Part shown: piece after piece, positions 4,030 through 30,672 of the stretch
How positions within the stretch are numbered: the stretch's first letter is position 1
Layout: the number at the start of each line of letters is the position of its first letter
NCBI RefSeq assembly: GCF_001895045.1
Contig: NZ_BDAM01000013.1
Coordinates: 1-34,008 of the forward strand
Reading direction: 5' to 3'
Length of the DNA stretch: 34,008 nt
DNA from: Rhodococcus coprophilus NBRC 100603
Lineage (GTDB): Bacteria; Actinomycetota; Actinomycetes; Mycobacteriales; Mycobacteriaceae
The notes under the pieces: generated by a model
Seen by the model: only the letters and a program-made list of their open reading frames with translations
What the model was told of the DNA's origin: nothing
Databases searched by the model: none
Program-made: the position numbers and the translations under genes

Positions 4030-4044
4030 GAGAACGTGCTTTCC
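4030..4044. promoter_or_regulatory. Weak copy of the regulon palindrome
   Basis: GAGAACGTGCTTTCC has a good left half (GAGAAC against GAGAAT) but a poor right half (3 of 6). It is noted because it sits in the 85-base divergent region between the SnoaL-like gene (-) and the SDR (+), the same placement as the strong copies at 14161 and 25416. On its own it would be unconvincing. Confidence 0.3.
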
Positions 4045-4074
4045 TAGAGCGGCTTTTTGAGGCATGATCCATAC

Positions 4075-4842
4075 ATGTCGCAACTCGATTCTCTACATGA
4101 TCTGAGCGGGAAAACCGCTGTCGTCACGGGTGGTTCGCGTGGAATCGGCAGGGCCATCGCCGAGATACTCGCGCAGGCCGGGGCCGACGTCGTGATCGCC
4201 TCCCGCAAACTGGACAACTGTGTCACGGCCGCCGAGGAAATCGCGGAGACGACGGGGAGAAAGCCCCTACCCGTCGCCTGCCACGTCGGCCGCTGGGACG
4301 ACTGTAACGACCTCGTAGACACCACCCTCGAGCATTTCGGGCGCCTGGACATCCTCGTCAACAACGCCGGCATGTCCCCGTTGTACGAGAATCTCGAGTC
4401 CATCACCGAAGACCTCTACGACAAGACATTCGGCGTCAATCTGAAGGGCCCGTTCCGCCTCGCCGTCCGCGCGGGCGCGTACATGGCCGACCACGACGGG
4501 GGATCGATCATCAACGTCGGTACCGCAGGGTCCCTGGTAGCCAGTGTGCGCGAACTGCCGTACGCGTGCGCGAAGGCGGGTCTCAACGCGTTGACCGTCG
4601 GACTCGCCGAGGCGTACGCCCCGAAGGTACGGGTCAACGCGATCCTGCCCGGACCGTTCCGCACCGATCTCTCGAAGGCGTGGGCGCCGGCCGAGGACGA
4701 GGACGCACCGTTCGTACCGATGCGGCGGATGGGCCGACCCGAGGAGATCGCGCCGCTGGCACTGCATCTCGCGAGCGACGCGTCCAGTTTCACCACCGGG
4801 GCCATCATTCGCGTCGACGGGGGCGTCACCCGCAAGGTCTGA
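4075..4842 (+). CDS. Short-chain dehydrogenase/reductase
   Basis: 255-residue classical SDR. It shows VTGGSRGIGRA (TGxxxGxG nucleotide loop), NNAG, and Y-x-x-x-K in LPYACAKAGL, with PGPFRT after strand six and a C-terminal VDGG. The position of the usual catalytic serine reads VGTAGS, so a threonine or the later serine may serve. It is likely a 3-hydroxyacyl-CoA or alcohol dehydrogenase of the island. ATG 4075 (MSQLDS) is preferred; an in-frame TTG at 4057 would add six residues, and the only GAGG-like ribosome site is rather far from 4075, so the start is not certain. It stands alone between a divergent gene and a terminator. Confidence 0.86.
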   Translation: MSQLDSLHDLSGKTAVVTGGSRGIGRAIAEILAQAGADVVIASRKLDNCVTAAEEIAETTGRKPLPVACHVGRWDDCNDLVDTTLEHFGRLDILVNNAGMSPLYENLESITEDLYDKTFGVNLKGPFRLAVRAGAYMADHDGGSIINVGTAGSLVASVRELPYACAKAGLNALTVGLAEAYAPKVRVNAILPGPFRTDLSKAWAPAEDEDAPFVPMRRMGRPEEIAPLALHLASDASSFTTGAIIRVDGGVTRKV

Positions 4843-4857
4843 CCACGACCACGACGA

Positions 4858-4889
4858 AGGGCGCCCCTCCGTGAAGGAGCGGGCGCCCT
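4858..4889. terminator. Bidirectional hairpin terminator
   Basis: AGGGCGCCC (4858-4866) pairs with GGGCGCCCT (4881-4889). An inner CTCC/GGAG stem (4867-4870 / 4876-4879) follows after one bulged base, with the loop GTGAA. It lies in the 59-base gap between the convergent SDR and enoyl-CoA hydratase genes. Confidence 0.75.
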
Positions 4890-4901
4890 CGTACGTGACG
4901 T

Positions 4902-5684
4902 CTATTTGATGTTCTGCTTCATCTCGTCGAGTTTCATCAGCACCGGCCAGCCACCGACGCTCAGCGCGTTTCCGTGCCCGGTCTGGTGGATGTCGAATAC
5001 CGACTGGATCGCCGCGTAGAAGCCCTGCACGTCCAGCGTCTGATTGACAGCCCGCTTCGCCTGTCGCAGCCCGAACGGCGGCATCTGCGCGATCTGCTCG
5101 GCAAGTTCGCGAACCTCGGCATCGAGACGATCCCGGGGCACGACCTTGTTGACCATCCCCGTCTTCTCCGCTTCCTCGGCGGTGACCGGGCGGCCGGTGA
5201 ACAGGATTTCCTTGGCCTTGCGGGGGCCGAGTTCCCAGGTGTGGCCGTGGTATTCGACACCGCCGATACCCATCATCACTACCGGGTCGGAGAACGAGGC
5301 GTCCTCCGAGGCGACTATGAGATCGCACGGCCAGCAGAGCAACAGTCCGCCCGCGATGCATCTGCCCTGGACCGCGGCGATGGACGGCTTCGGGATGTTC
5401 CGCCACCGCATCGAGTATTCGAGGTACCGGCGCGACTCGGTCGAGTAGATCATCTCGAGGGTGATCTTGTCGGGGACCGGACCGCCGCCTCGCATGTCGT
5501 GTCCGGCCGAGAAGTGCTTGCCCTCGGCACGGAGCACGATCACCGACACTTCCGGATCGTCCCCGGCCTTGCGCCATGCGGCATCGAGTTCGTCGAGCAG
5601 GTCGGCATTCTGGGCGTTTGCGGCGTCGGGCCGGTTGAGCGTGATCGTTGCGATCTTGTCCTCGACGTCGTACAGGATGTACAT
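4902..5684 (-). CDS. Enoyl-CoA hydratase/isomerase (crotonase) family protein
   Basis: 260 residues with crotonase features: TITLNRPDAANAQN near the N-terminus, the first oxyanion segment KHFSAGHDM, the second CIAGGLLLCWPCDL, and GPRKAKEILFTGRPVTAEEA after the active-site region. The stretch where hydratases carry their second glutamate reads MGIGGVEYHGH, so classical hydratase chemistry is not certain; an isomerase or hydrolase role is possible. The ATG at 5684 has an AGGAG site just upstream. It is the last gene of a - strand operon, 10 bases after the stop of the dehydrogenase large subunit. Confidence 0.87.
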   Translation of the reverse strand: MYILYDVEDKIATITLNRPDAANAQNADLLDELDAAWRKAGDDPEVSVIVLRAEGKHFSAGHDMRGGGPVPDKITLEMIYSTESRRYLEYSMRWRNIPKPSIAAVQGRCIAGGLLLCWPCDLIVASEDASFSDPVVMMGIGGVEYHGHTWELGPRKAKEILFTGRPVTAEEAEKTGMVNKVVPRDRLDAEVRELAEQIAQMPPFGLRQAKRAVNQTLDVQGFYAAIQSVFDIHQTGHGNALSVGGWPVLMKLDEMKQNIK

Positions 5685-5694
5685 TCCGGACTCC

Positions 5695-6870
5695 TCATCC
5701 ACGGGGAAGGCCGAGTACTCGTTCGGCGATGATGTTCCTCTGAATTTCCGAAGTGCCGCCTGCGATGGTGCCTGCGAAACTCCGGACGAAGCGTTCGAAC
5801 CAACTGGACGAGAAGTTGTCGAGATTCCACGGCACGTACGCCGATGTGGTTGCGGGGTGCGCCAGTCCGTCGGCACCCGCCGCATCGAGCGCGTATTCCG
5901 CACCGTTCTGCACGGCTTCGGAACCGAGCAGCTTGAGCACCGACAACGCGGGCACGTCCTGGTTACCGCGCGACTCACGCACAAGCGCTGCCGAACCGAG
6001 CAGTTTCAGTGCCTGATGATCCATGACGAGACTGGCGAATCGATCGCGATCGAGCACCGTCCGGGGGTGGAAGTCCTCGACGAGATCCTGCAGCCGATCC
6101 GAGAAGCTCAGCCACAGCAGGGTCCGCTCGTGGCCGAGCGAGCCGTTGGCGACCTTCCAGCCACCGTTCAGTTCCCCGATCAGATTCTCCGCAGGCACCC
6201 GGACGTCGGTGAAGAACACCTCGTTGAAGTCCCGGTCGTCGCCGTCGGCGATCGAGGCGAACGGGCGCCGGACGACACCCGGGGTATCGGTGGGAATGAG
6301 CAGGACGCTGATGCCCTTGTGTTTCGGTGCATCGGGATCGGTCCGTACGAAGGTGAGGAGAACGTCGGCGTCGTGAGCACCGGAGGTCCAGACCTTCTGG
6401 CCGTCGACGACGAAGTGATCGCCGTCGAGCACCGCGCGGGTGCGCAGCGACGCGAGATCGGAACCCGCGCCGGGCTCACTCATTCCGAGCGCCGCGGTGA
6501 TCTCGGCTCGCAGGATGGGTACGGCCCAGCGCTTCTTCTGCTCCTCGGTTCCGAACGACAGCAGCGACGCCGCGATGATGCCGAGTCCCTGCGGGTTGAA
6601 GCTGTGGTAGATCCGTCGCTTCGACAACTCCTCGAGATGGACGTACTGCTGGAGAATCGTCGCGTTCCGGCCCCCGTATTCGGGTGGGTTGGCGGGGAGC
6701 AGCCACCCGTTGTCGAACTGCGTACGTTGCCAGCGCCGTGCCCACTCCGGGACGTCGGCGCTCGAACGTGCGCGTTCGCCGGCCTCGGACTCGTCGGGCA
6801 GGTTCTCGTCGAGGAACGCTACGAACTCGGCGCGGAACTCCTCGACATCGGAATCAAACGAAAGTTGCAC
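5695..6870 (-). CDS. Acyl-CoA dehydrogenase, large subunit (pair 2)
   Basis: 391 residues with complete acyl-CoA dehydrogenase architecture: LGMSEPGAGSDLASL at 128-142, the VDGQKVWTSGAH segment, KGISVLLIP, and the C-terminal IAGGTSEIQRNIIAERVLGL. As in the other pairs, glycine (G371) replaces the glutamate of the IYEGT motif. It overlaps the preceding small-subunit gene by 17 bases and is followed by an enoyl-CoA hydratase, consistent with successive beta-oxidation steps. The N-terminal region is longer than in the other two large subunits. Confidence 0.9.
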   Translation of the reverse strand: MQLSFDSDVEEFRAEFVAFLDENLPDESEAGERARSSADVPEWARRWQRTQFDNGWLLPANPPEYGGRNATILQQYVHLEELSKRRIYHSFNPQGLGIIAASLLSFGTEEQKKRWAVPILRAEITAALGMSEPGAGSDLASLRTRAVLDGDHFVVDGQKVWTSGAHDADVLLTFVRTDPDAPKHKGISVLLIPTDTPGVVRRPFASIADGDDRDFNEVFFTDVRVPAENLIGELNGGWKVANGSLGHERTLLWLSFSDRLQDLVEDFHPRTVLDRDRFASLVMDHQALKLLGSAALVRESRGNQDVPALSVLKLLGSEAVQNGAEYALDAAGADGLAHPATTSAYVPWNLDNFSSSWFERFVRSFAGTIAGGTSEIQRNIIAERVLGLPRG

Positions 6871-7846
6871 GGTACTCCTCGGCGATCAGCGCCCGATGCT
6901 CCGACGCGGAGCCGAGCATGTGCTCGGCGGCCCGGGCTCGCTTGAGCGCGAACTGAAGGTCGTTCTCCCAGGTGAATCCCATGGCGCCGAACAACTGCAG
7001 GCCGTTGCGGAAGACGAGGGATTGGCATTCTCCCGCAGCGGCTTTCGCCATGGATGCTGCGAGTCTGCGGCGCGGGTCGTTCTCCGCGACGGTCAGTGCG
7101 GCAAAGTAGGCGAGCGCGCGAGCGCGCTGGATGGCGACATGCATGTCGGTCGCCCGGTGCTTGACCGCCTGGAACGAGCCGATCGCGACGCCGAACTGCT
7201 GACGGTTGCGCACGTGGTCGAGCGCGAGATCCAGAACACGCTGGCACGCACCGACTGTGGAGAGAGCCAGACCCGTGAGTGCGATGTGACGGGCCCGCTC
7301 GACGTCGATACCCGTCAGCGGATCGTCGACCCGCACGGCGTCGAAGGTGACGTCGGCGACGTGGAGCACCGGGTCGAACACAGCGCTCCGCTTGGCGGTG
7401 ACCTTGTCGGCGGCCACGGTGAACACACCGGTCTCGGTGGCGACGGCGATCTGCTCCGCCCTGTCGCCGTCGAGCACACGGAGCGCCGTGCCGTGCAGGA
7501 CCCAGCCCGACGAGTCGCGATACGCCTTCACGCCGTCGTAGACGGCGGCTCCTGCGTGGTCCGGCCCGCTGTCGCCCGCGAGCGGCGCGTATTGCGTCGT
7601 CGTGGCGAGAAAAGGAGTCGGGTCCGTGGCCCGGCCGAGCTCTTCGACGACGATGGCCAGTTCGACGGCCGCGTCGGGGTCTGCGAGTTCTGTCCAGCCC
7701 ATCCCCAGATAGCTCTTCCACAGGGGCGCCGGATCAGCGCCTCCGTCGACGACGCTGCGGATGAGCGTGGGTGGACATTCCTTCGCCGTCACTTCGCGGA
7801 CGGTTTTCTGCCACAACTGTTGATCTGAGTCGAACTCGAAGAGCAT
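6854..7846 (-). CDS. Acyl-CoA dehydrogenase-like small subunit (pair 2)
   Basis: 330 residues. It has an N-terminal dehydrogenase-like domain, with ELGRATDPTPFLATTTQYAP recognisable and the core poorly conserved. The C-terminal domain carries DHVRNRQQFGVAIGSFQAVK and LFGAMGFTWENDLQF. It partners the following large subunit. The start chosen is ATG 7846 (MLFEFD), which has an AAGGAGG ribosome site nine bases upstream; the longer in-frame reading to 8002 would cross the promoter and operator. First gene of a - strand operon whose -10 (TATTCT) lies inside the palindrome at 7890-7904. Confidence 0.87.
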   Translation of the reverse strand: MLFEFDSDQQLWQKTVREVTAKECPPTLIRSVVDGGADPAPLWKSYLGMGWTELADPDAAVELAIVVEELGRATDPTPFLATTTQYAPLAGDSGPDHAGAAVYDGVKAYRDSSGWVLHGTALRVLDGDRAEQIAVATETGVFTVAADKVTAKRSAVFDPVLHVADVTFDAVRVDDPLTGIDVERARHIALTGLALSTVGACQRVLDLALDHVRNRQQFGVAIGSFQAVKHRATDMHVAIQRARALAYFAALTVAENDPRRRLAASMAKAAAGECQSLVFRNGLQLFGAMGFTWENDLQFALKRARAAEHMLGSASEHRALIAEEYRATFV

Positions 7847-7889
7847 TCCGGCATGCCTCCTTGCCAGTGCTGCGATGCACAATGGGACC

Positions 7890-7904
7890 GAGAATAACAT
7901 TCTC
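7890..7904. promoter_or_regulatory. Regulon operator (perfect palindrome) over the -10 of the pair-2 operon
   Basis: GAGAATAACATTCTC is a perfect 6-3-6 inverted repeat. On the - strand it contains TATTCT, a good -10 element, placing a transcription start about 40 bases upstream of the small-subunit ATG. A repressor bound here would block that promoter. It lies in the divergent region shared with the TetR gene, about 75 bases upstream of the probable tetR promoter. The same 6-3-6 pattern recurs at 8675, 14161, 15881 and 25416. Confidence 0.75.
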
Positions 7905-7978
7905 TTATGTGGATAGTAAGAGTCTCTAGTCCCGGGGAGAGGGTACAGTCGCTCCCTCGAATCGTCCCTACCCTCCGG

Positions 7979-7984: not shown

Positions 7985-7990
7985 GCATCT

Positions 7991-8029
7991 ATGTCCACCC
8001 AAAGTGACGAAGTGCGGCTCCAGCGGTGA
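7991..8029 (+). CDS. Putative 12-codon leaderless upstream ORF overlapping tetR
   Basis: ATG 7991 encodes MSTQSDEVRLQR and stops at TGA 8027-8029. That stop overlaps the GTG start of the TetR gene (GTGA, 8026-8029). The -10 TACAGT lies six bases before the ATG, so the mRNA probably begins with this AUG. Leaderless short ORFs coupled to a downstream gene are known in mycobacteria. Alternatives are that the peptide is only a vehicle for coupling, or that a frameshift split a longer TetR N-terminus. The peptide itself has no recognisable function. Confidence 0.45.
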   Translation: MSTQSDEVRLQR

Positions 8030-8673
8030 CCGGCCCCAGTGAAGAGCCGGCCTGGAAGCAGCGGGCAGTGGAGCGGTCCATCCGGACCGCCAAACTGCGC
8101 GCCGAACAGCGCGTGCAGAGGTTCCTCGACGCAGCCCAGGCGATCATCACCGAAAAGGGAAGCACCGACTTCACGGTCCAGGAAGTCGTCGACCGGTCGA
8201 AGCAGTCGCTTCGCAGCTTCTACCTGCAGTTCGACGGCAAACACGAGCTCCTGCTCGCCCTGTTCGAGGACGCGCTCGGCCGCTCCGCCGACCAGATCCG
8301 TGCCGCCGCAGCCGGGAAAGACGACCCGCTCGACCAGCTTCGCGTCGCCGTCGAGTTGCTCTTCGAATCGTCGCGTCCGGACCCGACCGCCCAGCGTCCG
8401 TTGTTCACCGATTTCGCCCCTCAGCTGCTGCTCACGCATCCCGCCGAGGTCAAAGTCGCCCACGCGGCGATGCTCACGCTCTTCACGGAACTCATGGAGA
8501 AGGTCGCGGCGGCCGGCAAGATTCGGGCCGGTGCCAACCCGAAGCGCATGGCAGCGATGACGATGCAGACCGTGATGTTCATCGCTCAGTCCAGTGGTGG
8601 CGACGACACTGCGCGAGCGATCACCGCCGAGGAAGTCTGGGCCTTCTGCTCCGAAGGATTCGCTGCTCGCTGA
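8026..8673 (+). CDS. TetR-family transcriptional regulator (candidate regulon repressor)
   Basis: 215 residues. The N-terminal DNA-binding domain (about 30-80) has RFLDAAQAIITEKGSTDFTV, the helix-turn-helix EVVDRSKQSLRSFYLQFDGK, and then HELLLALFEDAL. The C-terminal all-alpha domain is the expected ligand-binding part. TetR regulators of catabolic clusters usually repress until a pathway intermediate, often an acyl-CoA, binds. The GTG start at 8026 overlaps a short upstream ORF (GTGA). Perfect palindromes lie 120 bases upstream (7890) and immediately after its stop codon (8675). It is the only dedicated DNA-binding regulator gene inside the catabolic part of the window, so it is the natural candidate for binding GAGAATnnnATTCTC. 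That assignment is inference. Confidence 0.88.
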   Translation: MTGPSEEPAWKQRAVERSIRTAKLRAEQRVQRFLDAAQAIITEKGSTDFTVQEVVDRSKQSLRSFYLQFDGKHELLLALFEDALGRSADQIRAAAAGKDDPLDQLRVAVELLFESSRPDPTAQRPLFTDFAPQLLLTHPAEVKVAHAAMLTLFTELMEKVAAAGKIRAGANPKRMAAMTMQTVMFIAQSSGGDDTARAITAEEVWAFCSEGFAAR

Positions 8674-8719: not shown

Positions 8720-9538
8720 GTGCCCGAGCTCTGGAACGATCTCCTCAACTGCCTCGACCTACGCGCATGCCCCTCGGACGAAGACCGAGACGACATCGCC
8801 CTCTTCGACGGAACCAACCAGCAACTGGAGTATCACCGGTTGTTCGGGGGCCAGCTCCTGGCCCAGCTGGTACGCGCCGCGCAACTCTCCTGCCCCGGCA
8901 AGAGCATCAAATCGCTGCATGCGGTGTTCGCGCGTGAAGGCCGTGCGGACGAGCCCGTGCGGTACGAAATCACCCGTCGCCACGAGGGCCGCTCGTTCGC
9001 GACCCTGTCGGCCGTCGCTCAGCAGTCCCGCGGCGTGCTCGCCACCGCGTCGGTCTCGATGCACGCGCACGAGGACGGACCCGAACTCCAGACGATAGAG
9101 GCCGTGCCGCCGGTTCTCCCCGCCGATGCACACACCGAGTTCACGCTGATCCCGTGGGAAACCCGCACGACCACCGACCTCTCCCACTCCGGAGTGTCGG
9201 CTCCCGAGTTCGAGATGTGGATGCGCACTCCGGAGGTCGATCCCGATTTCGCCCCCGCGCTCACCGCGTACGCGACCGACCTCAATCTGATCGGTACCGC
9301 GCTGCTCGGTGTCGACGGTTTCGACCACACCGGCAACGGAACGAAGTTCACATCGGCGGTCACGTCGCACAACCTGTGGTTCCACCGACCGTTCCGAAGC
9401 GACGAATGGTTGTTGCTGCGGCAGCACAGCCCGATCCTCGTCCACGGCCGCTGCTTCGGCCGCGGCGACGTGCTCACCGAAAACGGCAGCCTCGTCGCGT
9501 CGTTCGCGCAGGAAGCCCTCGTTCGCATTCCCCAGTAG
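8720..9538 (+). CDS. tesB: Acyl-CoA thioesterase II (TesB-like)
   Basis: 272 residues, close to the usual 280-290 of TesB double-hotdog thioesterases. Typical segments are YHRLFGGQLLAQLVRAAQ near the N-terminus, then SIKSLHAVFAREGRADEPV, YEITRRHEGRSFATLSAVAQQ, and the second hotdog with HNLWFHRPFRSDEWLLL and GRGDVLTENGSLVASFAQEA. The family hydrolyses acyl-CoA to free acid and CoA, relieving CoA trapping by slowly processed intermediates. The start is GTG 8720, preceded at leaderless spacing by TACACT (8708-8713). It is the first gene of a two-gene + strand unit with an operator directly upstream. Confidence 0.86.
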   Translation: MPELWNDLLNCLDLRACPSDEDRDDIALFDGTNQQLEYHRLFGGQLLAQLVRAAQLSCPGKSIKSLHAVFAREGRADEPVRYEITRRHEGRSFATLSAVAQQSRGVLATASVSMHAHEDGPELQTIEAVPPVLPADAHTEFTLIPWETRTTTDLSHSGVSAPEFEMWMRTPEVDPDFAPALTAYATDLNLIGTALLGVDGFDHTGNGTKFTSAVTSHNLWFHRPFRSDEWLLLRQHSPILVHGRCFGRGDVLTENGSLVASFAQEALVRIPQ

Positions 9539-9581: not shown

Positions 9582-10688
9582 ATGTCGAGGTATGAAGTGG
9601 AACAGCCGTTTCGGTCCGTCCCCGTCGGTACAGCGGTCGCTCCGGAAGGGGACGGCAACCGCCCGTTGCGAGTGGTTCAATGGGCCACCGGCAACATCGG
9701 CACACGCGCCCTCCGGGCAGTGATCGACCACCCGAATCTCACCCTCGCCGGGGTCTACGTACACAGCGACGACAAGGCCGGGCAGGAGGCGGGCGAACTG
9801 TGCGGCCGCGACCCGGTGGGTGTGCGGGCGACCCGGGAACTCGACGACATCCTGGCACTGGACGCCGACTGTGTGCTGTACATGCCGCTGAGATTCGATC
9901 TCGACGAAGTGTGCCGGATCCTCGCGTCGGGCACGCACATCGTCACCACGCGAGGAGAGTTCCACCACCCGAGGACCATGGATCCGGCGATCCGTACCGC
10001 GGTGGAGGAGGCGTGCGCTCTCGGACGCACCTCCATCCACAGCACCGGCAGCAGCCCAGGATTCATCACCGAGGCCGTGCCGCTGGTCCTTTCGTCCATC
10101 CAGCGTCGGCTCGACCACCTGGCAATCGACGAGTACGCAGACCTCTCGCAGCGCAACTCGCCGGGAATCCTTTTCGAAATCATGGGTTTCGGCGGACCCG
10201 CCGACACCTTCGAGGAATTCCGGCTCGCGCACGTGCAGTCCAACTTCGGGCCGTCCCTCTCCGCCCTCGCCGACGCTCTCGGACTCTCCCTCGACTCGAT
10301 CGAGGCGTCCGGTGAAGTCGCCCTCGCCCGGAACCCCGTGACCATCGCAGCAGGAACGATCGACGCAGGGACCGTTGCGGCACAGAGGATCACCGTGTCC
10401 GGCATGAAGGACGGCCGGGAGCTCATGCGCTTCCGGCCGACCTGGTATTGCACCGGCGATCTCGACGCCGACTGGGACTTGCATTCGACCGGGTGGCACA
10501 TCTCCGTCGACGGCGACGCCCCACTCGACATCGAGATGCGGTTCCCGGTACCGCTCGACCGGATGAGCGAGGTGTCTCCGTCCTACACGGCCAACCGCGC
10601 GGTCAACGCGATTCCCGCGGTCTGTGCAGCGCAGCCCGGTATCCGGACCACCGTCGAACTACCCCTGATCGTTCCCGAGTTCAGCTGA
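9582..10688 (+). CDS. NAD(P)-binding oxidoreductase, dihydrodipicolinate reductase-like
   Basis: 368 residues. A Rossmann N-terminus (LRVVQWATGNIGTRALRAV, GxxGxxG-like at about 36-42) and DDILALDADCVLYMPLRFD match the DapB N-terminal-like family that also includes 2,4-diaminopentanoate dehydrogenase-type proteins. The C-terminal half has STGSSPGFITEAVPL and many conserved-looking polar stretches but no assignable catalytic motif. Members of this family are frequent in actinobacterial catabolic clusters with unknown substrates. The start is uncertain: ATG 9582 (MSRYEV) or GTG 9567, with no clear ribosome site. The stop lies 8 bases inside the end of the convergent MeaB gene, leaving no room for a terminator. 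Confidence 0.8.
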   Translation: MSRYEVEQPFRSVPVGTAVAPEGDGNRPLRVVQWATGNIGTRALRAVIDHPNLTLAGVYVHSDDKAGQEAGELCGRDPVGVRATRELDDILALDADCVLYMPLRFDLDEVCRILASGTHIVTTRGEFHHPRTMDPAIRTAVEEACALGRTSIHSTGSSPGFITEAVPLVLSSIQRRLDHLAIDEYADLSQRNSPGILFEIMGFGGPADTFEEFRLAHVQSNFGPSLSALADALGLSLDSIEASGEVALARNPVTIAAGTIDAGTVAAQRITVSGMKDGRELMRFRPTWYCTGDLDADWDLHSTGWHISVDGDAPLDIEMRFPVPLDRMSEVSPSYTANRAVNAIPAVCAAQPGIRTTVELPLIVPEFS

Positions 10689-11595
10689 CCGGACGACGGG
10701 AGACGGCGCCCGTCCCGATCCCGAGGATCAACTGCTCGGCGGCGGCGTACGGATCGCTGCTGCCGTCCGCGACCGCGTCCGCCAGGCCGTCGAGCGCAGG
10801 GTGCGTGCGAAGCAAGGTGTGCGCCAGAGAAAGGATCTGACCGCGGGCGCGGGCACTCCGTCGTTCCGGTGTGTCCGCGCGCTGGTGCGCGTCGATGGCG
10901 TCGATCAGCTCCGTCACTCCGGTGCCCTCGGACGCGACCAGCTGGAGGATCGGCACCTTCGCCTCGGTCCTCAGATCCCGGACCGTCTGAGCGGCTCCTT
11001 CCCGGTCGGCCTTGTTGACCACGAGAAGGTCGGCGACTTCGAGCAACCCGGCCTTTGCCGCTTGAATCGTGTCGCCACCACCGGGATTGAGGATCACCAC
11101 CGTCGGGTCGGCCACCGAAGCGATCTCGATTTCGGATTGACCGACGCCAACCGTCTCGAGCACGATCACGTCGTAGTTCAGTGCGGCCAGCAGCCGGATC
11201 GCGGCAGGCACCGCGGCCGCGAGTCCGCCGAGATGGCCGCGCGAGGCCACGGACCGGATGAGCACGTCACGGTCGTGCACGTGCTCGGCCATCCTGATGC
11301 GATCCCCGAGCAACGCACCGCCGCTGTAGGGAGACGACGGATCCACAGCGAGGACCGCGACCCGCAGTCCTCGCGCGCGGTATTCCGCGGTCATCGCTCC
11401 GACGGTGGTGGATTTACCCGCGCCCGGCGGCCCGGTCACCCCGACCACCCGTGCGGTGGCCGGCCCGAGCGCATCGAGTACCTCGTCGCGCCGGGGGCTT
11501 TCCACAAGGCTCAGCAATCGCCCTGCGGCGCGCGGGGATCCCCCGCGCGCCGCAGCGAGCAATTCGGCGATGTCCGCCCCGCCGGAACCACTCAA
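10681..11595 (-). CDS. meaB: MeaB/ArgK-type G3E GTPase, chaperone of a B12-dependent mutase
   Basis: 304 residues. Walker A GPPGAGKST (about 55-63), AVDPSSPYSGGALLGDRIRM, ETVGVGQSE and VVNKAD (GTP-binding guanine motif) identify the MeaB/ArgK family. MeaB proteins load and protect adenosylcobalamin in methylmalonyl-, isobutyryl- or 2-hydroxyisobutyryl-CoA mutases. The likely partner is the split mutase at 28654-30632, 17 kb away in the same probable regulon. The start is TTG 11595, whose TTGA overlaps the thiolase stop; the ORF runs open further upstream, but those codons shadow the thiolase. Third gene of the synthetase-thiolase-meaB unit. Confidence 0.88.
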   Translation of the reverse strand: MSGSGGADIAELLAAARGGSPRAAGRLLSLVESPRRDEVLDALGPATARVVGVTGPPGAGKSTTVGAMTAEYRARGLRVAVLAVDPSSPYSGGALLGDRIRMAEHVHDRDVLIRSVASRGHLGGLAAAVPAAIRLLAALNYDVIVLETVGVGQSEIEIASVADPTVVILNPGGGDTIQAAKAGLLEVADLLVVNKADREGAAQTVRDLRTEAKVPILQLVASEGTGVTELIDAIDAHQRADTPERRSARARGQILSLAHTLLRTHPALDGLADAVADGSSDPYAAAEQLILGIGTGAVSRRPVS

Positions 11596-15895: not shown

Positions 15896-15985
15896 GCAAT
15901 TCGGAAGGCCATTCTGGAATTAGAGAGCGTCCGGAGAACAGACAAACACGTTGCACGGAACGGGATCACAGAAATCGAGGTCGCA

Positions 15986-16177
15986 ATGAAGGTGGCAGTG
16001 GACGCACAACGTTGTCAGGGACACACACTGTGTGCCATGGCGGCACCCGCACTTTTCGAATTGAGCGAGATCGACGGGCACGCCACCGCCGTCGACGCCG
16101 AAGTCCCCGCTGTGCTCGAGGAGACCGCACGCGAAGCCTCCCGAAGCTGCCCGGAACAGGCGATCACCATCCTCTGA
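15986..16177 (+). CDS. P450-type [3Fe-4S] ferredoxin
   Basis: 63-residue ferredoxin with C10-Q-G-H13-x-x-C16 and C55-P. Histidine in place of the second cysteine gives the CxxHxxC...CP pattern typical of single-cluster [3Fe-4S] ferredoxins that serve bacterial cytochromes P450. The downstream gene is a P450, so this is its probable electron donor. The start is ATG 15986 (MKVAVDAQ) after GAGG; the reading to 15863 would begin before the predicted promoter. Confidence 0.92.
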   Translation: MKVAVDAQRCQGHTLCAMAAPALFELSEIDGHATAVDAEVPAVLEETAREASRSCPEQAITIL

Positions 16178-16219
16178 CGTCCCATCCGTATCGCGATCAC
16201 CGCACGAGAGGGCAAGGCA

Positions 16220-17563: not shown

Positions 17564-17578
17564 CAACGTCGACGCGTC

Positions 17579-17613
17579 ACCGGCTCGGCCCGCGTACATA
17601 CGCCCGAGCCGGT
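17579..17613. other. Intercistronic hairpin between the P450 and amidohydrolase genes
   Basis: ACCGGCTCGG (17579-17588) pairs perfectly with CCGAGCCGGT (17604-17613), and GCGT/ACGC pair inside. The hairpin fills most of the 67-base gap and ends shortly before the amidohydrolase ribosome site (GAGGA). It could be a partial terminator or mRNA-stability element setting P450 against downstream expression. Confidence 0.55.
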
Positions 17614-17630
17614 AACGAAAGAGGAATCCG

Positions 17631-18902: not shown

Positions 18903-18933
18903 GCACGCGCGCACCGACCGACAAGGAACAGGC

Positions 18934-21950: not shown

Positions 21951-21951
21951 G

Positions 21952-23932: not shown

Positions 23933-25364
23933 GGCGCTCCTCGAGTAGTCGGCGCAACACCTTGCCGGAGGGCAAGCGGGGAATTTCGGGGACAAGGACC
24001 ACACGGCTGGGGCGCTTGTAGGAGGCGAGTCGCTCGGCGACGTAGCCGATGATTTCGCCGGAGTCGATCGTCGCGCCGGCGCAGGGGGTGACCGCCGCGA
24101 CCACCGCTTCACCCGCGGCCTCGTCGGCGACGCCGAACACGGCGCAGTCGGCGACGGCCGGGTGTCCGTGCAGGACCGCCTCGACTTCGGCGGGCGCGAC
24201 CTGAAAACCGTTGACCTTGATCATCTCTTTGGATCGGTCGGTGATGCGGATCCATCCGGCTTCGTCGACGGATCCGACGTCGCCCGTCCGATACCAGCCG
24301 TCGGTGAAGGCGTCGGCGGTCGCGTCGGCGGGCAGGTATCCGGCCATGAGCGACCGCGATTTCACCTGGATCTCACCGCGCTCACCGGGGCTGACCGGTT
24401 CGCCGGTGTCGAGCGACACCACACGCAGTTCCACGCCGGGAACCGCGCGACCCACGCTGTCGAGCCGTCCGCCGTCGATCGGGTTGCACGCGATCACGGG
24501 TATCTCGCTCGCTCCGTAGGCGGGCACCCACGGCACGCCGGTGCGGCGCGTGACCGTCTCTGCGATGCTCGGGGTCACGGGGGTGGCGCCCCACATGATG
24601 TATCGGAGCGAGGACAGGTCCAGGGACTCGAGGCCGGGATACGACGCGATGGCCATGGCGATGGGTGCGACGGCCATCTCGACGGTGATCCGGTCCCGCT
24701 CGATGTGCCGCAACATGGTTTCGAGGTCGAACCGGTGATGCAGCCGCATCCAGGCACCGGCTTCGAGGGCCGTGGCGATGTTGAGCAGTCCGAGGATGTG
24801 CGACGGCGGGGTGACGATCTGGATCCGGTCGGCCGGCGTGAGTGCGAGGGCATCCCGCCAGTGCGCCACGGCGGCGCCGAAGGAGGCGTGGGTGTGCCTG
24901 ACGGCTTTGGGCAGGCCGGTGGTGCCCGAGCTGAACACGAGCACCGCGTCCGATTCCCGGTCCACGCGCGGGAAGGTGAAACCGGACGGGACGTCGGTCG
25001 AGCCGGATTCGCCGGGATGCAGCTCGTCGAGATGCAGCATCGGGACGGGAACGTCCTGGCCGGCGACGGCTTCGGCAAGGACCGGGCTGTCTCCCACCGC
25101 CGCAACCGGAGCGGTGAGGCCGAACGCGTGGTCCACCTCGGTGCGCTTCCAGGACGGGCTCATGAGCACCACCACGGCACCGAGTCGCCAGACGGCCTGC
25201 ACCGCTGCCACGAACTCGGGACGGTTCGACGACATGAGCGCGACCCGGTCACCGATCCCGACGTCGTGTGCGCGGAGGCGGTGGGCAATGCCGTCGGCGC
25301 ACGAGTCGAGATCGGCGAGGGTGAACTCGCGATCTTCGAATGCCAGCACGGCAGGCTCTGTCAT
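23910..25364 (-). CDS. Acyl-CoA synthetase (AMP-forming, FadD-like)
   Basis: 484 residues of the ANL superfamily. The P-loop is SSGTTGLPKAV (145-155), then GASEIPVIAC, the hinge region WYRTGDVGSVDEAGWIRITDR, VNGFQVAPAEVE, and the catalytic lysine K468 in LPSGKVLRRL. All core motifs are intact. It activates a carboxylic acid, probably a different chain length or intermediate from the synthetase at 12724-14160. ATG 25364 (MTEPAV) with GAGAG upstream is preferred over ATG 25433, which lies at the operator. First gene of the synthetase-FadE-FadE-crotonase operon. Confidence 0.9.
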   Translation of the reverse strand: MTEPAVLAFEDREFTLADLDSCADGIAHRLRAHDVGIGDRVALMSSNRPEFVAAVQAVWRLGAVVVLMSPSWKRTEVDHAFGLTAPVAAVGDSPVLAEAVAGQDVPVPMLHLDELHPGESGSTDVPSGFTFPRVDRESDAVLVFSSGTTGLPKAVRHTHASFGAAVAHWRDALALTPADRIQIVTPPSHILGLLNIATALEAGAWMRLHHRFDLETMLRHIERDRITVEMAVAPIAMAIASYPGLESLDLSSLRYIMWGATPVTPSIAETVTRRTGVPWVPAYGASEIPVIACNPIDGGRLDSVGRAVPGVELRVVSLDTGEPVSPGERGEIQVKSRSLMAGYLPADATADAFTDGWYRTGDVGSVDEAGWIRITDRSKEMIKVNGFQVAPAEVEAVLHGHPAVADCAVFGVADEAAGEAVVAAVTPCAGATIDSGEIIGYVAERLASYKRPSRVVLVPEIPRLPSGKVLRRLLEERHGRTSDE

Positions 25365-25430: not shown

Positions 25431-25467
25431 CACTTAGCAGAATACTAATACCAGGAGGAGACGGTCC

Positions 25468-26508
25468 ATGGCGAGACCACCACTGTTTCAGCGCGCGACC
25501 GTGACCCGGATCGTGAAGGAGACGGACGACGCGCGCACCTACGTGCTCGCCCCCGACGACGGGCCCTTCACCTATCGATCGGGGCAGTTCTGCACCTTCA
25601 AAGTGACGGTCGACGGGACAGACCTGTACCGGTCGTATTCGATGTCGAGCGCCCCCGAAACCGACTCCGAAATGATGATCACCATCAAGCGGGTACCCGG
25701 CGGGTCGGTCTCGAACTGGCTCCACGACAACATCTCGGAAGGAGACAAAGTCGAAATCACCCGTCCCGCTGGCACTTTCCTGTTGCGCCCAGCCGAGGGC
25801 GCGGTACTCGGATTCGCGGGCGGTAGCGGCATCACACCGATCCTGTCGCTCGCCAAGAGTGCCCTCGCGTCGACCGACCGCCGGGTGCGCCTGCTCATCG
25901 CCGACCGCGACCGGGCGTCCGCGATCTTCGAAACGGTCGTTGCCGACCTCGCGGCCGAGTACCCGGGCCGGCTCGAGGCCGTCCGGCACTACGACGACGA
26001 GAGCGGACTGCTGGATCCCGCCGCCGTCGCAGCGTTCGTCGGTGCCGACACCGGCGCCGACAGTTACCTGTGCGGCCCGGAAGCGTTCATGGACATGATC
26101 GAAAGTGCGCTGAGCGGGAGCGGCCAGGTCTACAGCGAGCGATTCGGAAGCGCAGCCGAACCCATTCAGGTCGCAGACGTGCCTGTCGCCGAAACAGCCG
26201 TTGCCGAAACAGCCGTGGCACAGCCTGCGGAGATAACCGGCACGGTGTCGATCCGCCTGGGAAGCAAGCGGGTTTCGGTACCGCGCCACCCCGGAGAGAC
26301 TCTCCTCGAAAGCGCCCGGCGCGCCGGTCTGGCACCGCCGTTCTCCTGCGAGGCCGGCAACTGCGCGACCTGCATCGCCAAGATCGTCGACGGCAGCGCG
26401 ACGATGCGCGTGAACGACGCTCTCAGCGACGACGAGATCGCCGACGGTTACATCCTCACGTGCCAGGCGGTCCCCGACAGCAACGACATCAAGGTGCGGT
26501 ACGAGTAG
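25468..26508 (+). CDS. Oxygenase ferredoxin reductase, FNR type with C-terminal [2Fe-2S] (KshB/PaaE-like)
   Basis: 346 residues. The FAD-binding barrel has RSYS (55-58), the NAD-binding domain has GGSGITP (118-124) and YLCGPEAFM (200-208), and the C-terminal plant-type ferredoxin domain has C294, C299, C302 and C332. The order FAD-NAD-[2Fe-2S] is that of KshB, PaaE and Hmp-like reductases. The linker (about 238-256) contains a short tandem repeat, AETAV twice. Such reductases usually feed Rieske oxygenases; none is present here, so the partner may be the P450 ferredoxin or an oxygenase outside the window. Strong GGAGGAG ribosome site before the ATG. Confidence 0.92.
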   Translation: MARPPLFQRATVTRIVKETDDARTYVLAPDDGPFTYRSGQFCTFKVTVDGTDLYRSYSMSSAPETDSEMMITIKRVPGGSVSNWLHDNISEGDKVEITRPAGTFLLRPAEGAVLGFAGGSGITPILSLAKSALASTDRRVRLLIADRDRASAIFETVVADLAAEYPGRLEAVRHYDDESGLLDPAAVAAFVGADTGADSYLCGPEAFMDMIESALSGSGQVYSERFGSAAEPIQVADVPVAETAVAETAVAQPAEITGTVSIRLGSKRVSVPRHPGETLLESARRAGLAPPFSCEAGNCATCIAKIVDGSATMRVNDALSDDEIADGYILTCQAVPDSNDIKVRYE

Positions 26509-26582: not shown

Positions 26583-26583
26583 G

Positions 26584-27654
26584 TCAGACCGACGATGTGG
26601 GCACTTCGTCGTGCTCACCGAGACGAGGCGGCGCGCCGTATCGCGGCTCGTACCCTTCCACACGGATCGGGCTGCCCACCAGGCGAAAATCACCCGCGGT
26701 GACGATCGCCTCCGGGGTCGCCTCGAGCGCGTCGGGCAGTGAGCGCACCGCGGCGGCCGGGACGCCGAGCGGACGAAGCCGCTGCTCCCAGCCCGACGCC
26801 GTGTCGCGAGCGAGCACCGCCGTGACGACCTCGAGCACCTCGTCGCGACGACTCGCACGCTCGGCCATCGTCTCGAATCCCGCGATACCGGCCTCTGCGG
26901 CGAATACCCTCCAAAAACCGTCGTGCGTGATGAACAGCGCCAGAGTCCCGTCGGACGTCGGGAACAGCTGTGCCGGCACGTAATACGAATGGGCACCGTT
27001 CGGCATGCGCTTCGGCTCGGTGCCCTCGTTGAGGTACGCGGATGCGCGGTAGTTGAGCTGCGAAAGCATCACGTCACGCAACGAGACGTCGAGTTGCCCA
27101 CCACGCCCGGACACGATCTGGGCAAGCAGGCCCAGCGCGGCGGTCAGCCCCGTCGAGTTGTCGGCCGCCGAATAACCGGGCAGGGTGGGCGGCCCGTCCG
27201 GATCGCCCGTCAGGGACGCGACGCCGGTGACAGCCTGGATGACATAGTCGAAGGCGGGGTCGTCCCCGGAGTTCAGGCCGTATCCGGTGAGCGCGACACA
27301 CACGATCTTGTCGTTGTGGGAGCGCAGCGCCTCGTAGGTCAGCCCGAACCTGCGGATCGCGGAGGGCTTGAGATTGACCAGCAAGGCGTGCGCTCCGGCC
27401 GCGAGTTCGCCGAGTTTTCGCTGGCCCTCGTCGGACGAGAGGTCCAGGCAGATACTGCGCTTGCCGCGGTTGAGGCTCGCGAAGTACGCGTCGCTCACCT
27501 GGCGGGAGAGATCGCCGGTGGGCGGTTCGATCTTCGTGACCTCGGCACCGAGGTCCGCGAGCATCATCGTGGCGTAGGGGCCCGCGAGGATGTGTCCGAC
27601 CTCGAGGATGCGGATACCCGCGAGGGGGCCCACATTCCGATCTTCCTCGGTCAC
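26584..27654 (-). CDS. Class III CoA-transferase (CaiB/BaiF family)
   Basis: 356 residues, somewhat shorter than the usual 380-400. GIRILEVGHILAGPYATMMLADLGAEV is the N-terminal Rossmann signature (28 residues shared with the family pattern; key GPYATM), then NRGKRSICLDL, VNLKPSAIRRFGL, and D165 in GYSAADNSTGL as the catalytic aspartate. It moves CoA between carboxylic acids, or in relatives racemises 2-methylacyl-CoA. The GTG start at 27654 overlaps the LLM gene's TGA (GTGA). Last gene of the mutase operon, so it may activate or epimerise the mutase substrate or product. Confidence 0.88.
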   Translation of the reverse strand: MTEEDRNVGPLAGIRILEVGHILAGPYATMMLADLGAEVTKIEPPTGDLSRQVSDAYFASLNRGKRSICLDLSSDEGQRKLGELAAGAHALLVNLKPSAIRRFGLTYEALRSHNDKIVCVALTGYGLNSGDDPAFDYVIQAVTGVASLTGDPDGPPTLPGYSAADNSTGLTAALGLLAQIVSGRGGQLDVSLRDVMLSQLNYRASAYLNEGTEPKRMPNGAHSYYVPAQLFPTSDGTLALFITHDGFWRVFAAEAGIAGFETMAERASRRDEVLEVVTAVLARDTASGWEQRLRPLGVPAAAVRSLPDALEATPEAIVTAGDFRLVGSPIRVEGYEPRYGAPPRLGEHDEVPTSSV

Positions 27655-28607
27655 CGCAATTCCTTGGCGAGCTCGGCGACCACCTCGCGCGTGCGGTACT
27701 TCGACGCGACCAGTTCGTCGCGGGTGTTGCCGATCGGCAGCAAACGCATCGACAAGTCGGTGACCCCGGCGTCACGGTAGCGGCGGAATCCGGCGAGAAT
27801 CGCCTCTTCGTCTCCCACGATCGCCATCTCGCCGATGTCCTTCGCCTCACCCTGTTCGAGCAGACGCTGGTAGTTCGGCGAGATCTCCGCCTCCGCGAGG
27901 ATGCGGTTGGCGCGCTCGCGGGCGATGTCCACCTCGTCCGGCGCGCACAGGCACACCGGAACACCGGCGACGACCCGCGGCGCCGGACGCCCTGCTTCGG
28001 CGGCGGCCTTGGTGATACGAGGCACGACGTGCTCGCCGATCGCGCGCTCGTCGGCCATCCACAAGATCGTGCCGTCGGTGTGTTCGCCCGCGATCCGGAG
28101 CATCACCGGTCCCAGAGCAGCCACCAGGATCGGCATCGGTGCGACCGGTGCGATGTCGAGTGGGTTGTGCACGGTGAACGTGTCGTTCTCGACATCCACC
28201 GACCCTGGTCCGTGCTGGGCCGCGTTGAGAACCTCGAGATAGTCGCGGGTGAGCTTGGCCGGCTTGTCGTACGGGAGTCCGAGCATGTCCTGCACGATCC
28301 AGTGGTGCGACGGCCCCACACCCAAGGCGAGCCGTCCGCCGAGAGCGGCATGGGTGGACAGCGACTGACGCGCCAACGCGATCGGATGCTGAGCCTGGAG
28401 CGGTACGACCGCCGTGCCGATTTCGATGCGGCTGGTCCTCGTGCCCATCAGCGCGACCGCGGTGAGCGCGTCGAAGTCGGTGGGAATCTGCGGTACCCAT
28501 ACCGTGTCGAAGCCTGCGGCTTCCGCCCATTCGACGTCTTTCAGCATGCGGTCGACCTTGCGGGCCGTGTCGCCCTGTTCCGGGCCGACCATCACTCCGA
28601 TACGCAC
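27651..28607 (-). CDS. LLM-class flavin/F420-dependent oxidoreductase
   Basis: 318 residues with luciferase-like monooxygenase TIM-barrel features: MRIGVMVGPEQGD, AEAAGFDTVWVPQ, TSRIEIGTAVVPLQAQHP, GGRLALGVGPSHHWIVQDM, and DGTILWMADERAIGEHV. The TSRIEIGTAV...R wording is common in actinobacterial F420-dependent members; FMN is also possible. Reactions in this class include hydride transfer to enoyl or keto groups and monooxygenation. A GGAGGAA ribosome site precedes the ATG. It lies 46 bases after the mutase small subunit in the same operon. Confidence 0.88.
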   Translation of the reverse strand: MRIGVMVGPEQGDTARKVDRMLKDVEWAEAAGFDTVWVPQIPTDFDALTAVALMGTRTSRIEIGTAVVPLQAQHPIALARQSLSTHAALGGRLALGVGPSHHWIVQDMLGLPYDKPAKLTRDYLEVLNAAQHGPGSVDVENDTFTVHNPLDIAPVAPMPILVAALGPVMLRIAGEHTDGTILWMADERAIGEHVVPRITKAAAEAGRPAPRVVAGVPVCLCAPDEVDIARERANRILAEAEISPNYQRLLEQGEAKDIGEMAIVGDEEAILAGFRRYRDAGVTDLSMRLLPIGNTRDELVASKYRTREVVAELAKELR

Positions 28608-28653
28608 GATTCCTCCAGCTTTCCGAACCCGATTGTGTGAGTGCCGCGCGTGG

Positions 28654-29055
28654 TCACAGCGGCGCGGCCGTGCCCGTCAGTTTCCGAACCTCTTCGACGA
28701 GGACGTCCAGCGGAGTGCTCGTGGGGCACACCGCTGCCGCGCCGGCGGCGAGAAGCTTGGGCACGTCGCTCTGCGGAATCGTGCCGCCGACGATCACGTC
28801 GATGTCGCCGGCGTCGGCCGCACGCAGTTCCTCGATCACCTTGGTGGTGAGTGCGACGTGTGCTCCCGAAAGGATGCTGAGGCCGACCACCGCCACGTCT
28901 TCCTGCACCGCGATGGAGACGATGTCTTCGACCTTCTGGCGGATTCCGGTGTAGATCACTTCGAATCCGGCGTCGCGGAGGGCGCGGGCGACGATCTTGG
29001 CACCGCGATCGTGGCCGTCGAGACCGGGCTTGGCGACAAGAATACGGGCGCTCAT
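28654..29055 (-). CDS. Cobalamin-binding small subunit of a split acyl-CoA mutase
   Basis: 133 residues. Base-off/His-on B12 domain: D13-x-H15-x-x-G18 in GLDGHDRGAK (H15 is the cobalt ligand), the SxL motif in LSILSGAH and the GG motif in VIVGGTIPQ. This is the separate small subunit as in isobutyryl-CoA, 2-hydroxyisobutyryl-CoA and archaeal methylmalonyl-CoA mutases. The ATG at 29055 shares one base with the large-subunit TGA (TGATG). It forms adenosylcobalamin-dependent mutase with the preceding gene and probably needs the MeaB at 10681. Confidence 0.93.
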   Translation of the reverse strand: MSARILVAKPGLDGHDRGAKIVARALRDAGFEVIYTGIRQKVEDIVSIAVQEDVAVVGLSILSGAHVALTTKVIEELRAADAGDIDVIVGGTIPQSDVPKLLAAGAAAVCPTSTPLDVLVEEVRKLTGTAAPL

Positions 29056-30632
29056 CAGAACACCACCGGCTGACGGAACTCGCCCCAGACGTTCTTGAGC
29101 GCGGAAACCATCTCTCCGACAGTGCAATACGCGTTGGCGCAGTCGATCAAACGGTGCATCAGATTCTCGGTTCCTTCCGCGGCGCGGGACAGTTCGGCGA
29201 GCGTGGTGCGTACGGCCTCGGAGTCGCGTTCCGCCTTCACTTTCGCGAGACGCTCGAGCTGCATCTCGCGGCCCATGGCATCGAGTTCGTACGTCGAAAT
29301 CTCCGGTGCCGGTTCGTCGGAGACGAACTTGTTGACACCGACCACGGGACGCTCACCGCCCTCGATCTCCTTGTGGGTCTTGTACGCCTCGTCCGCGATC
29401 AGACCCTGCAGGTAGCCGTCTTCGATGGCCCGGACCATGCCGCCGTGCGCCTCGAGATCAGCCATGATCTCGATGATGCGTTCTTCGGTCGCGTCGGTGA
29501 GGGCTTCGACGAAGTACGAACCGCCCAGCGGGTCGGCCACGCGCGTCACGCCGGTCTCGTACGCGAGGATCTGCTGTGTGCGCAGCGCCAGGGTCGCGGA
29601 TTCCTCACTGGGCAGGGCGAAAGGTTCGTCCCACGCCGCGGTGAACATCGACTGCACGCCGCCGAGTACCGAGGCCATGGATTCGTAGGCGACCCGCACC
29701 AGGTTGTTCTGGGCCTGCGGCGCATAGAGCGACGCGCCACCGGCCACGCAGCCGAAGCGGAACATCGACGCCTTGTCGGTGGTCGCGCCGTAACGTTCGC
29801 GGACGATCGTTGCCCAACGCCGGCGTCCGGCGCGGTACTTGGCGATCTCCTCGAAGAAGTCACCGTGGGTGTAGAAGAAGAAAGAGATCTGCGGGGCGAA
29901 CTGCTCGATGGTCATCCGGCCGCGCTCGAGGACGGTGTCGCAATAGGTCACGCCGTCCGCGAGGGTGAACGCCATCTCCTGCACCGCGTTGGCGCCCGCG
30001 TCACGGAAGTGCGCACCCGCCACCGAGATCGCGTTGAAGCGGGGAACTTCCGCCGCACAGAACTCGATGGTGTCGGCGATGAGCCGCAGCGACGGTTCGG
30101 GCGGCCAGATCCACGTTCCGCGCGATGCGTATTCCTTGAGGATGTCGTTCTGGATGGTGCCGGTGAGCTTCTCCCGCGGCACCCCCTTGCGCTCGGCGGC
30201 AGCGACGTAGAACGCCAGCAGAATGGCGGCCGTTCCGTTGATGGTGAAACTCGTACTGATCTTGTCGAGGGGAATGTCCTCGAAAAGAATCTCGGCATCG
30301 GCGAGCGTGTCGACGGCCACGCCGACGCGGCCCACTTCCTCACCGACCTCCGGGTCGTCGGAGTCGTAACCGCACTGGGTGGGGAGATCGAGCGCCACCG
30401 ACAGTCCCGTGCCGCCCTGCTCGAGCAGATAGCGGTACCGCCTGTTGGATTCCTCCGCGGTACCGAAGCCGGAGTATTGGCGGAACGTCCACAACCGGCC
30501 CCGATAGCCGGTGGCGAAGTTGCCGCGGGTGAAGGGGAAGCTGCCTGGCGCAGGCGGCTCGGTAACCCGGTCGTCCGGTCCGTAGACCGGCTCGAGCGGG
30601 ATACCCGACGAGGTTTCGGTGAAGTCGTTCAC
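29055..30632 (-). CDS. Acyl-CoA mutase large subunit, divergent methylmalonyl-CoA mutase family
   Basis: 525 residues from GTG 30632. TIM-barrel half of B12 mutases: WTFRQYSGFGTAEESN, TGTIQNDILKEYASRGTW, GGSYFVE and VGVNKF. Y53 and R171 align with P. shermanii Tyr89 and Arg207, residues associated with carboxylated (malonyl/succinyl-type) CoA substrates. Near-invariant pocket motifs are changed: GYH reads GAH (A207, H208 kept), HTQTAG/HSQTSG reads GCVAGG (294-299), and TQSLHTN reads VQSMFTA. The enzyme should perform a 1,2 carbon-skeleton rearrangement on an atypical, probably bulky substrate. The start is supported by a -10 (TAATGT, 30645-30640) seven bases upstream, suggesting a leaderless mRNA. 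First gene of the mutase-LLM-CoA-transferase operon. Confidence 0.92.
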   Translation of the reverse strand: MNDFTETSSGIPLEPVYGPDDRVTEPPAPGSFPFTRGNFATGYRGRLWTFRQYSGFGTAEESNRRYRYLLEQGGTGLSVALDLPTQCGYDSDDPEVGEEVGRVGVAVDTLADAEILFEDIPLDKISTSFTINGTAAILLAFYVAAAERKGVPREKLTGTIQNDILKEYASRGTWIWPPEPSLRLIADTIEFCAAEVPRFNAISVAGAHFRDAGANAVQEMAFTLADGVTYCDTVLERGRMTIEQFAPQISFFFYTHGDFFEEIAKYRAGRRRWATIVRERYGATTDKASMFRFGCVAGGASLYAPQAQNNLVRVAYESMASVLGGVQSMFTAAWDEPFALPSEESATLALRTQQILAYETGVTRVADPLGGSYFVEALTDATEERIIEIMADLEAHGGMVRAIEDGYLQGLIADEAYKTHKEIEGGERPVVGVNKFVSDEPAPEISTYELDAMGREMQLERLAKVKAERDSEAVRTTLAELSRAAEGTENLMHRLIDCANAYCTVGEMVSALKNVWGEFRQPVVF

Positions 30633-30657
30633 GCTGGATACATTACTTGCAGAAAAA

Positions 30658-30672
30658 GAGAATGCCAATATC
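30658..30672. promoter_or_regulatory. Weaker copy of the regulon palindrome between mutase and SDR genes
   Basis: GAGAATGCCAATATC has a perfect left half and 4 of 6 matches in the right half. It overlaps a + strand TATCAT (30669-30674) -10 candidate for the SDR and lies just upstream of the - strand TAATGT used by the mutase. Placement repeats that of the strong operators, but the match is weak. Confidence 0.4.

Follow-up and report, generated by a model that had tools for sequence, protein, structure and literature searches.

FadR-type TetR proteins are acyl-CoA-binding repressors of fatty acid degradation, KstR has a CoA thioester as its ligand, and the operator of KstR2 is AnCAAGnnCTTGnT. 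For KstR itself, PMC1995591 gives the operator TAGAAC-N2-GTTCTA. Dit catabolism of diterpenoids (abietanes) is known from Pseudomonas and Burkholderia (PMC6891630), and PMC12294881 reports that Rhodococcus rhodochrous IEGM 107 transforms dehydroabietic acid, with no high-identity match to the Pseudomonas query enzymes. Here, we analyzed contig C13 (NZ_BDAM01000013.1) of Rhodococcus coprophilus NBRC 100603, which in its entirety (34,008 bases of a 4.55 Mb genome) is referred to as the window. We propose, with a probability of about 0.9, that the window carries part of an autoregulated TetR repressor regulon with the operator GAGAAY-N3-RTTCTC, separate from the regulons of KstR and KstR2 and predicted to be controlled by the TetR gene at 8026-8673.

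The operator is a 6-3-6 inverted repeat, GAGAATNNNATTCTC. With up to three mismatches it matches the window 20 times, compared to a mean of 6.3 and a maximum of 13 in 100 dinucleotide shuffles. Six sites were accepted, and a seventh position is doubtful:

7890..7904, between the FadE operon (minus strand) and tetR (plus strand): perfect operator GAGAATAACATTCTC, 28.8 bits
8675..8689, between tetR and the thioesterase gene: perfect operator GAGAATCCTATTCTC, 29.1 bits
14161..14175, between an acyl-CoA ligase gene (minus) and a short-chain dehydrogenase/reductase (SDR) gene (plus): operator GAGAACATTATTCTC, one mismatch, 28.6 bits
15881..15895, before the ferredoxin and P450 genes: weak operator GAGACTATGGTTCTC, two mismatches, one per half, 14.5 bits
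25416..25430, between an acyl-CoA ligase gene (minus) and a PaaE-type reductase gene (plus): operator GAGAATAGTACTCTC, one mismatch, 22.0 bits
30658..30672, between the mutase operon (minus) and an SDR gene (plus): weak site GAGAATGCCAATATC, two mismatches, both in the right half, 13.0 bits
4009..4044, between a SnoaL-like gene (minus) and an SDR gene (plus): doubtful degenerate pair, 4009 and 4030, 21 bp apart

The bit scores stem from a matrix trained on sites with at most two mismatches beside tetR in 79 other loci (148 sites, 118 distinct; locus L051, being 98% identical, was excluded), which recovers the window sites without training on their own genome. Its consensus is G-A-G-A-A-(T/C)-N3-(A/G)-T-T-C-T-C; since the training sites were picked by their likeness to the same motif, the matrix is not independent of the initial pattern. 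In 1 Mb of third-order Markov simulation, scores of at least 13 bits occur 0.14 times per 34 kb and scores of at least 16 bits not at all. The original prediction had listed seven copies. Six of these stand, with the perfect, one-mismatch and one-per-half classes exactly as it had assigned them. Of the two copies it had called weaker, 30658 holds, whereas 4030 has four mismatches and scores 0.9 bits (8.0 bits for its neighbor 4009) and was dropped as a full operator. Weak scores also occur at positions that nobody had claimed, namely 19561 (9.1 bits), 30138 (6.7) and 7018 (4.7).

Conservation in related genomes had been set as a test of the prediction, and the site indeed flanks tetR wherever orthologous loci were compared. 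These loci are the best 80 of 394 stretches encoding a relative of the TetR protein in a scan of named genomes; upstream is defined as within 250 bp 5' of the tetR start and downstream as 600-850 bp after it. A site with at most one mismatch is present upstream in 78 loci, mostly at about -137 from the tetR start, downstream in 57, on both sides in 55 and on at least one side in all 80. Across the 1.52 Mb of these loci, 215 sites have at most one mismatch, whereas four control patterns yield no such site; for two mismatches exactly, the motif counts 61 sites and the controls 22, 10, 7 and 3. The site also follows the repressor gene between genomes. In a panel of 121 (the own genome and 120 relatives), 21 carry a close TetR orthologue (E <= 1e-100; the weak matches in G060 and G105, with 28% and 33% identity, were scored as lacking one). 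Perfect sites are found in 20 of these 21 genomes (89 sites) versus 6 of the 100 others (6 sites), a co-occurrence with a Fisher p of 1.3e-16 in genomes that are related and thus not independent. Three same-genus genomes without the TetR (G003, G012 and G016) have no perfect site.

The individual sites differ in how well they are kept. The 15 bases at 14161 are identical in four of four relatives and recur in several named loci, and the operator at 25416 is likewise unchanged in all four. At 15881, the right half is retained in the alignable Rhodococcus relatives and the left half varies, with no alignable site in G006. All 15 bases at 30658 are identical in the four relatives, but since this includes the spacer, the cause may be another element. 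Parts of both 4009 and 4030 are retained in all four.

As the original prediction held, a TetR gene lies between the two perfect copies:

8026..8673, plus strand: TetR-family repressor of 215 amino acids (PF00440), the proposed binder

The protein scores 31.3 bits against the TetR_N domain PF00440 (cut-off 24) and is predicted to adopt the all-helical TetR fold; the best AlphaFold model has a pLDDT of 83.4 from a 12-sequence alignment, and the other four range from 67 to 75. It is the single match at E <= 1e-5 in its own genome, and its identity across Rhodococcus, Nocardia and Mycobacterium is about 80%. No relative of tetR was found in plasmid records at E <= 1e-20. FadR of Bacillus halodurans is among the nearest solved sequences, and the fold matches comprise EthR2, FadR, Rv0078, RolR and QacR, with KstR lower. 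Just before tetR, a 12-codon frame runs from the ATG at 7991 to 8029. Its TGA shares bases with the GTG that starts tetR (GTGA), so tetR may be translationally coupled to this short leader frame.

All six accepted sites stand before genes, in line with the claim that the copies mark operon 5' ends, and the TAnnnT hexamer that most copies were said to cover, resembling a -10 element, lies within or overlaps every one of them, on both strands in five. This layout fits direct repression at the -10 element in one or both directions. Site 14161 is immediately adjacent to 14160, the first ATG from which the acyl-CoA ligase gene could start; if this start is used rather than the further in-frame starts at 14148 and 14136, the transcript may have no leader or almost none. 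The genes of the window that would be served by these sites, together with the operon that opens it, are the following:

10..3527, plus strand: first operon, with an amidohydrolase, a SnoaL-like protein and two acyl-CoA dehydrogenase subunits; operator outside the window
4902..7849, minus strand: enoyl-CoA hydratase and two acyl-CoA dehydrogenase subunits; promoter at 7890
8720..9538, plus strand: acyl-CoA thioesterase; promoter at 8675
10681..14160, minus strand: operon of MeaB GTPase, thiolase and acyl-CoA ligase; promoter at 14161
14214..15730, plus strand: two SDR oxidoreductases; promoter at 14161
15986..19695, plus strand: ferredoxin, P450, DitZ-like amidohydrolase-superfamily protein (17631-18902) and SDR
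21183..25364, minus strand: enoyl-CoA hydratase, two acyl-CoA dehydrogenase subunits and acyl-CoA ligase; promoter at 25416
25468..26508, plus strand: PaaE-type ferredoxin reductase; promoter at 25416
26584..30632, minus strand: CoA-transferase, F420-type LLM protein, and small and large B12 mutase subunits
30718..31551, plus strand: SDR, divergent from the mutase operon

The whole genome contains 6 perfect and 11 one-mismatch sites; the window contig and the terminal 52 kb of contig C10 hold four of these each. At up to two mismatches there are 87 sites, so that a single two-mismatch site means little on its own. Besides the operator at its end (below), C10 has sites in front of genes for an amidohydrolase, a TauD-type dioxygenase, an acyl-CoA dehydrogenase and a ligase/enoyl-CoA hydratase pair. 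The C10 end is followed in order by the window start, a few kb away, on a single stretch in each of four relatives (G014, G017, G008 and G006). The gap in G014 holds a Rieske oxygenase gene with a 107-amino-acid gene twice (L134 1442-3023 and 5557-7138) and a CYP150-like P450 gene between the copies, a duplication that could explain the assembly break between C10 and C13. In the own genome, only weak matches to this gap DNA were found, either short or at 64-65% over about 1 kb; its genes thus seem absent from the assembly. C10 ends with the perfect operator C10:432754, and the gene behind it opens, in relatives, an operon of a putative CMD protein, Rieske oxygenase, small protein, amidohydrolase, SnoaL and acyl-CoA dehydrogenases. 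The Rieske gene is present in 56 named loci, of which 53 carry an operator upstream of it (at 567-678 bp in 52 and at 147 bp in one); the remaining three are cut by the locus edge. G017, G008 and G006 carry a one-mismatch operator directly before the gene that opens the window, and G014 has a two-mismatch site before its second Rieske copy. That no copy is seen at the first operon, which the original prediction ascribed to a promoter outside the window, is thus explained: the relatives place its operators across the contig gap, in a stretch that is unassembled here. Among the distal sites, C2:113613 (GAGAACACTATTCTC, one mismatch) lies beside acyl-CoA dehydrogenase and flavodoxin genes (L008, L022); its 15 bases are identical in both relatives checked and its neighborhood aligned in the one compared. 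The neighborhood of C11:46502 aligned in two of seven relative site loci. C9:152722 (L019) stands just before a gene for a family-5 solute-binding protein; by eye, other neighbors look ipdAB-like and nitronate-monooxygenase-like.

The gene content gives some indication of the substrate. The protein at 17631-18902 (PF04909) matches DitZ of PDB 8uyr end to end (904 bits over 423 amino acids), with about 89% identity as counted on the alignment; the next match is PtmU3 with 113 bits. We take PtmU3 to be a diterpenoid-pathway protein and Dit in the 8uyr entry to stand for diterpenoid. Given the more distant likeness of the window protein to PtmU3 and AibH-type proteins, it could act as a metal oxygenase instead of a hydrolase. 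Oxygenases of the amidohydrolase superfamily are known, for instance AibH1H2 (PMC7782822). The solved chains nearest to the P450 are CYP125, P450cin and CYP142. One acyl-CoA dehydrogenase has Tcur3483 as its nearest solved chain, with FadE26-type chains close by. The large B12 mutase subunit (28654-30632) is nearest to the large subunit of 2-hydroxyisobutyryl-CoA mutase and not to methylmalonyl-CoA mutase; the window also has a MeaB GTPase gene, at 10681. In mycobacteria, a search within loci of up to about 20 kb (at least 50% identity over at least 60% of the length; acyl-CoA ligase 23910-25433 excluded) returned a core of the first operon (51/54), tetR (54/54) and one acyl-CoA dehydrogenase (44/54).

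Several operators have a weaker companion about two helical turns away:

7912..7926: weaker companion GATAGTAAGAGTCTC, 22 bp from 7890
15902..15916: weaker companion CGGAAGGCCATTCTG, 21 bp from 15881; best offset of its class, from two genomes
25438..25452: weaker companion half-site CAGAATACTAATACC, 22 bp from 25416; second-best offset of its class

The regions upstream of 77 tetR orthologues gave +22 as the best of all offsets tested (15-62 bp on either side). The comparison was extended to 11 operator classes, two from named loci and nine from five genomes, some with two or three genomes each. A distance of 21-22 bp is the best of 47 spacings, with a class mean z of 3.48 (this value includes a misplaced G006 row of the mutase class, which was excluded from the permutation test below), compared to a mean of 1.04 (sd 0.57) over all spacings. 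One of the offsets +21, +22, -21 and -22 ranks among the four best in 11 of 11 classes and is the best in seven. The companions are poor in the tetR-downstream, mutase and C10:432754 classes, where 5 to 6 of 12 letters match on average. This arrangement hints at, but does not prove, a second dimer bound on the same helical face. On the side of 25416 opposite its companion, 22 bp before it, lies a 6-4-6 near-palindrome (GAGAGG-N4-CCTCTC, 25394-25409).

A number of observations weigh against the proposed regulon or parts of it. The orthologous loci are related, so their conservation counts are not independent. G015 encodes the TetR and has no perfect site, although a one-mismatch and a two-mismatch site adjoin its tetR. 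Of the 17 genomic sites with at most one mismatch, nine are located away from the cluster, and the neighborhoods of two perfect ones, C1:725046 and C9:152722, match none of the seven site loci compared in two relatives. At 21-22 bp, an increase is likewise seen for 59 permuted palindromes (mean 2.13, sd 0.48, best 3.31); although the real motif ranks first of 60 with 3.50, this makes the companion signal a moderate one. The fold matches of the repressor are common to many TetR proteins and thus indicate its fold, not its ligand. The DitZ-like gene occurs in none of the 54 mycobacterial loci, in the stretches searched, so that what is shared there is the core, and the substrate assignment leans mainly on the molecule name of one PDB entry.

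The operator could instead be bound by another TetR protein, with the window TetR serving a different role. The extended cluster does encode two more (C10:418293-418949 and C10:425943-426542), and in G039 a perfect site stands about 200 bp before a homologue of the latter, which may make that gene a target itself. Yet their homologues (E <= 1e-50) occur in 12 and 17 of the 121 genomes versus 21 for the window TetR, and G047 (six perfect sites), G002 and G010 (one each) contain the window TetR and neither rival. Given this poorer co-occurrence and the flanking sites in all 80 loci, a role of either as the true binder is quite improbable, which favors the tie to the neighboring TetR that was predicted from the sequence. 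A reading of the repeats as promoter or sigma-factor elements, or as terminator stems, is still less probable. The TAnnnT at each accepted site and the ability of inverted repeats to form stems would agree with this, but a promoter element needs no dyad symmetry in both arms and would not track one TetR gene across genomes, and at 7890, 8675, 14161 and 15881 the repeats stand before genes with no T-run after them. Control by KstR or KstR2 was ruled out from the operator counts: KstR operators (TnnAACnnGTTnnA) number six at one mismatch and none perfect in the window versus 3.5 expected, which is the chance level, and KstR2 operators none at up to one mismatch. The window TetR also scores 19.7 bits against the KstR equivalog NF033703 (cut-off 280). 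The original statement that the motif does not look like those of KstR and KstR2 is hence right as to the distinct regulon and too strong as to the half-sites, which do resemble those of KstR.

With a regulon of the window TetR retained, the question shifts to what it degrades. The DitZ match and the gene content favor a cyclic terpenoid acid, perhaps a diterpene acid, to which we give an even chance. The cluster might also serve the catabolism of steroids or other lipids, with a steroid-type or branched acyl-CoA as ligand. Steroid-type acyl-CoA dehydrogenases, the CYP125/142-like P450, ChsH2-like and thiolase-like proteins and the KstR-like half-site all point that way, whereas the DitZ match and the lack of enrichment of KstR and KstR2 sites in the window make it rather unlikely.

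In the proposed regulon, a dimer of the window TetR would sit on the palindrome overlapping the -10 element and block RNA polymerase, which would affect its own promoter as well as many catabolic operons, with six likely sites in the contig and more on the neighboring one. The weaker copy 21-22 bp away, two helical turns on the same face, may accept a second dimer and sharpen repression. Upon uptake of the substrate, a pathway intermediate would free the repressor and turn the cluster on together. This inducer is probably a CoA thioester, by analogy with the ligands of FadR and KstR and because many targets encode acyl-CoA enzymes. Breakdown of a cyclic, diterpenoid-like terpenoid acid would then draw on P450 and Rieske oxygenases, on two-subunit acyl-CoA dehydrogenases of the steroid type and on thiolase/aldolase steps. 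A single repressor would probably switch the whole pathway on and off. A broader picture, which we put forward tentatively, is that of a conserved master repressor acting through tandem operators on a cyclic (di)terpenoid-acid regulon of about 90 kb in rhodococci that is partly shared by rhodococci, nocardiae and mycobacteria. If true, it could help explain the degradation of resin-acid-like compounds by Gram-positive bacteria. More directly, the operator, the repressor and the set of target operons provide a handle on a cluster of unsettled substrate. If the cluster does transform dehydroabietic acid in strains like R. rhodochrous IEGM 107, the regulon indicates where the genes are to be sought, and its TetR protein could be used as a sensor for such compounds.

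No paper containing any of five exact operator strings was found in the open literature searched, a scope that leaves subscription papers mostly outside, and no paper on this regulator was among the matches listed there. The part of PMC4482099 that is available has a motif table without letters; one of its mycobacterial TetR motifs may therefore equal the window motif. Among the matches listed for PDB 8uyr there was likewise no paper, though a structure named DitZ implies that part of a similar cluster has already been studied by others. The likeness to the Dit systems consists of this DitZ-named chain and of Rieske and P450 oxygenases in a large cluster. The FadR-type TetR proteins of Bacillus and Thermus are among the nearest solved sequences and folds, but identity is about 16-21% in fold alignments, the window TetR scores 30.8 bits against the FadR equivalog NF053878 (cut-off 200), and its target set is unlike fatty acid degradation alone. 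KstR offers a close parallel, being a self-controlling mycobacterial TetR repressor of a large gene set for lipid and sterol catabolism, with an AGAAC-type palindrome overlapping the -10 element (PMC1995591). The two share AGAA(C/T) half-sites, whereas KstR has a two-base spacer and an outer T, the window motif has a three-base spacer and an outer G, and the target genes are other ones. One spacer base and one outer base may thus be what separates two TetR regulons.

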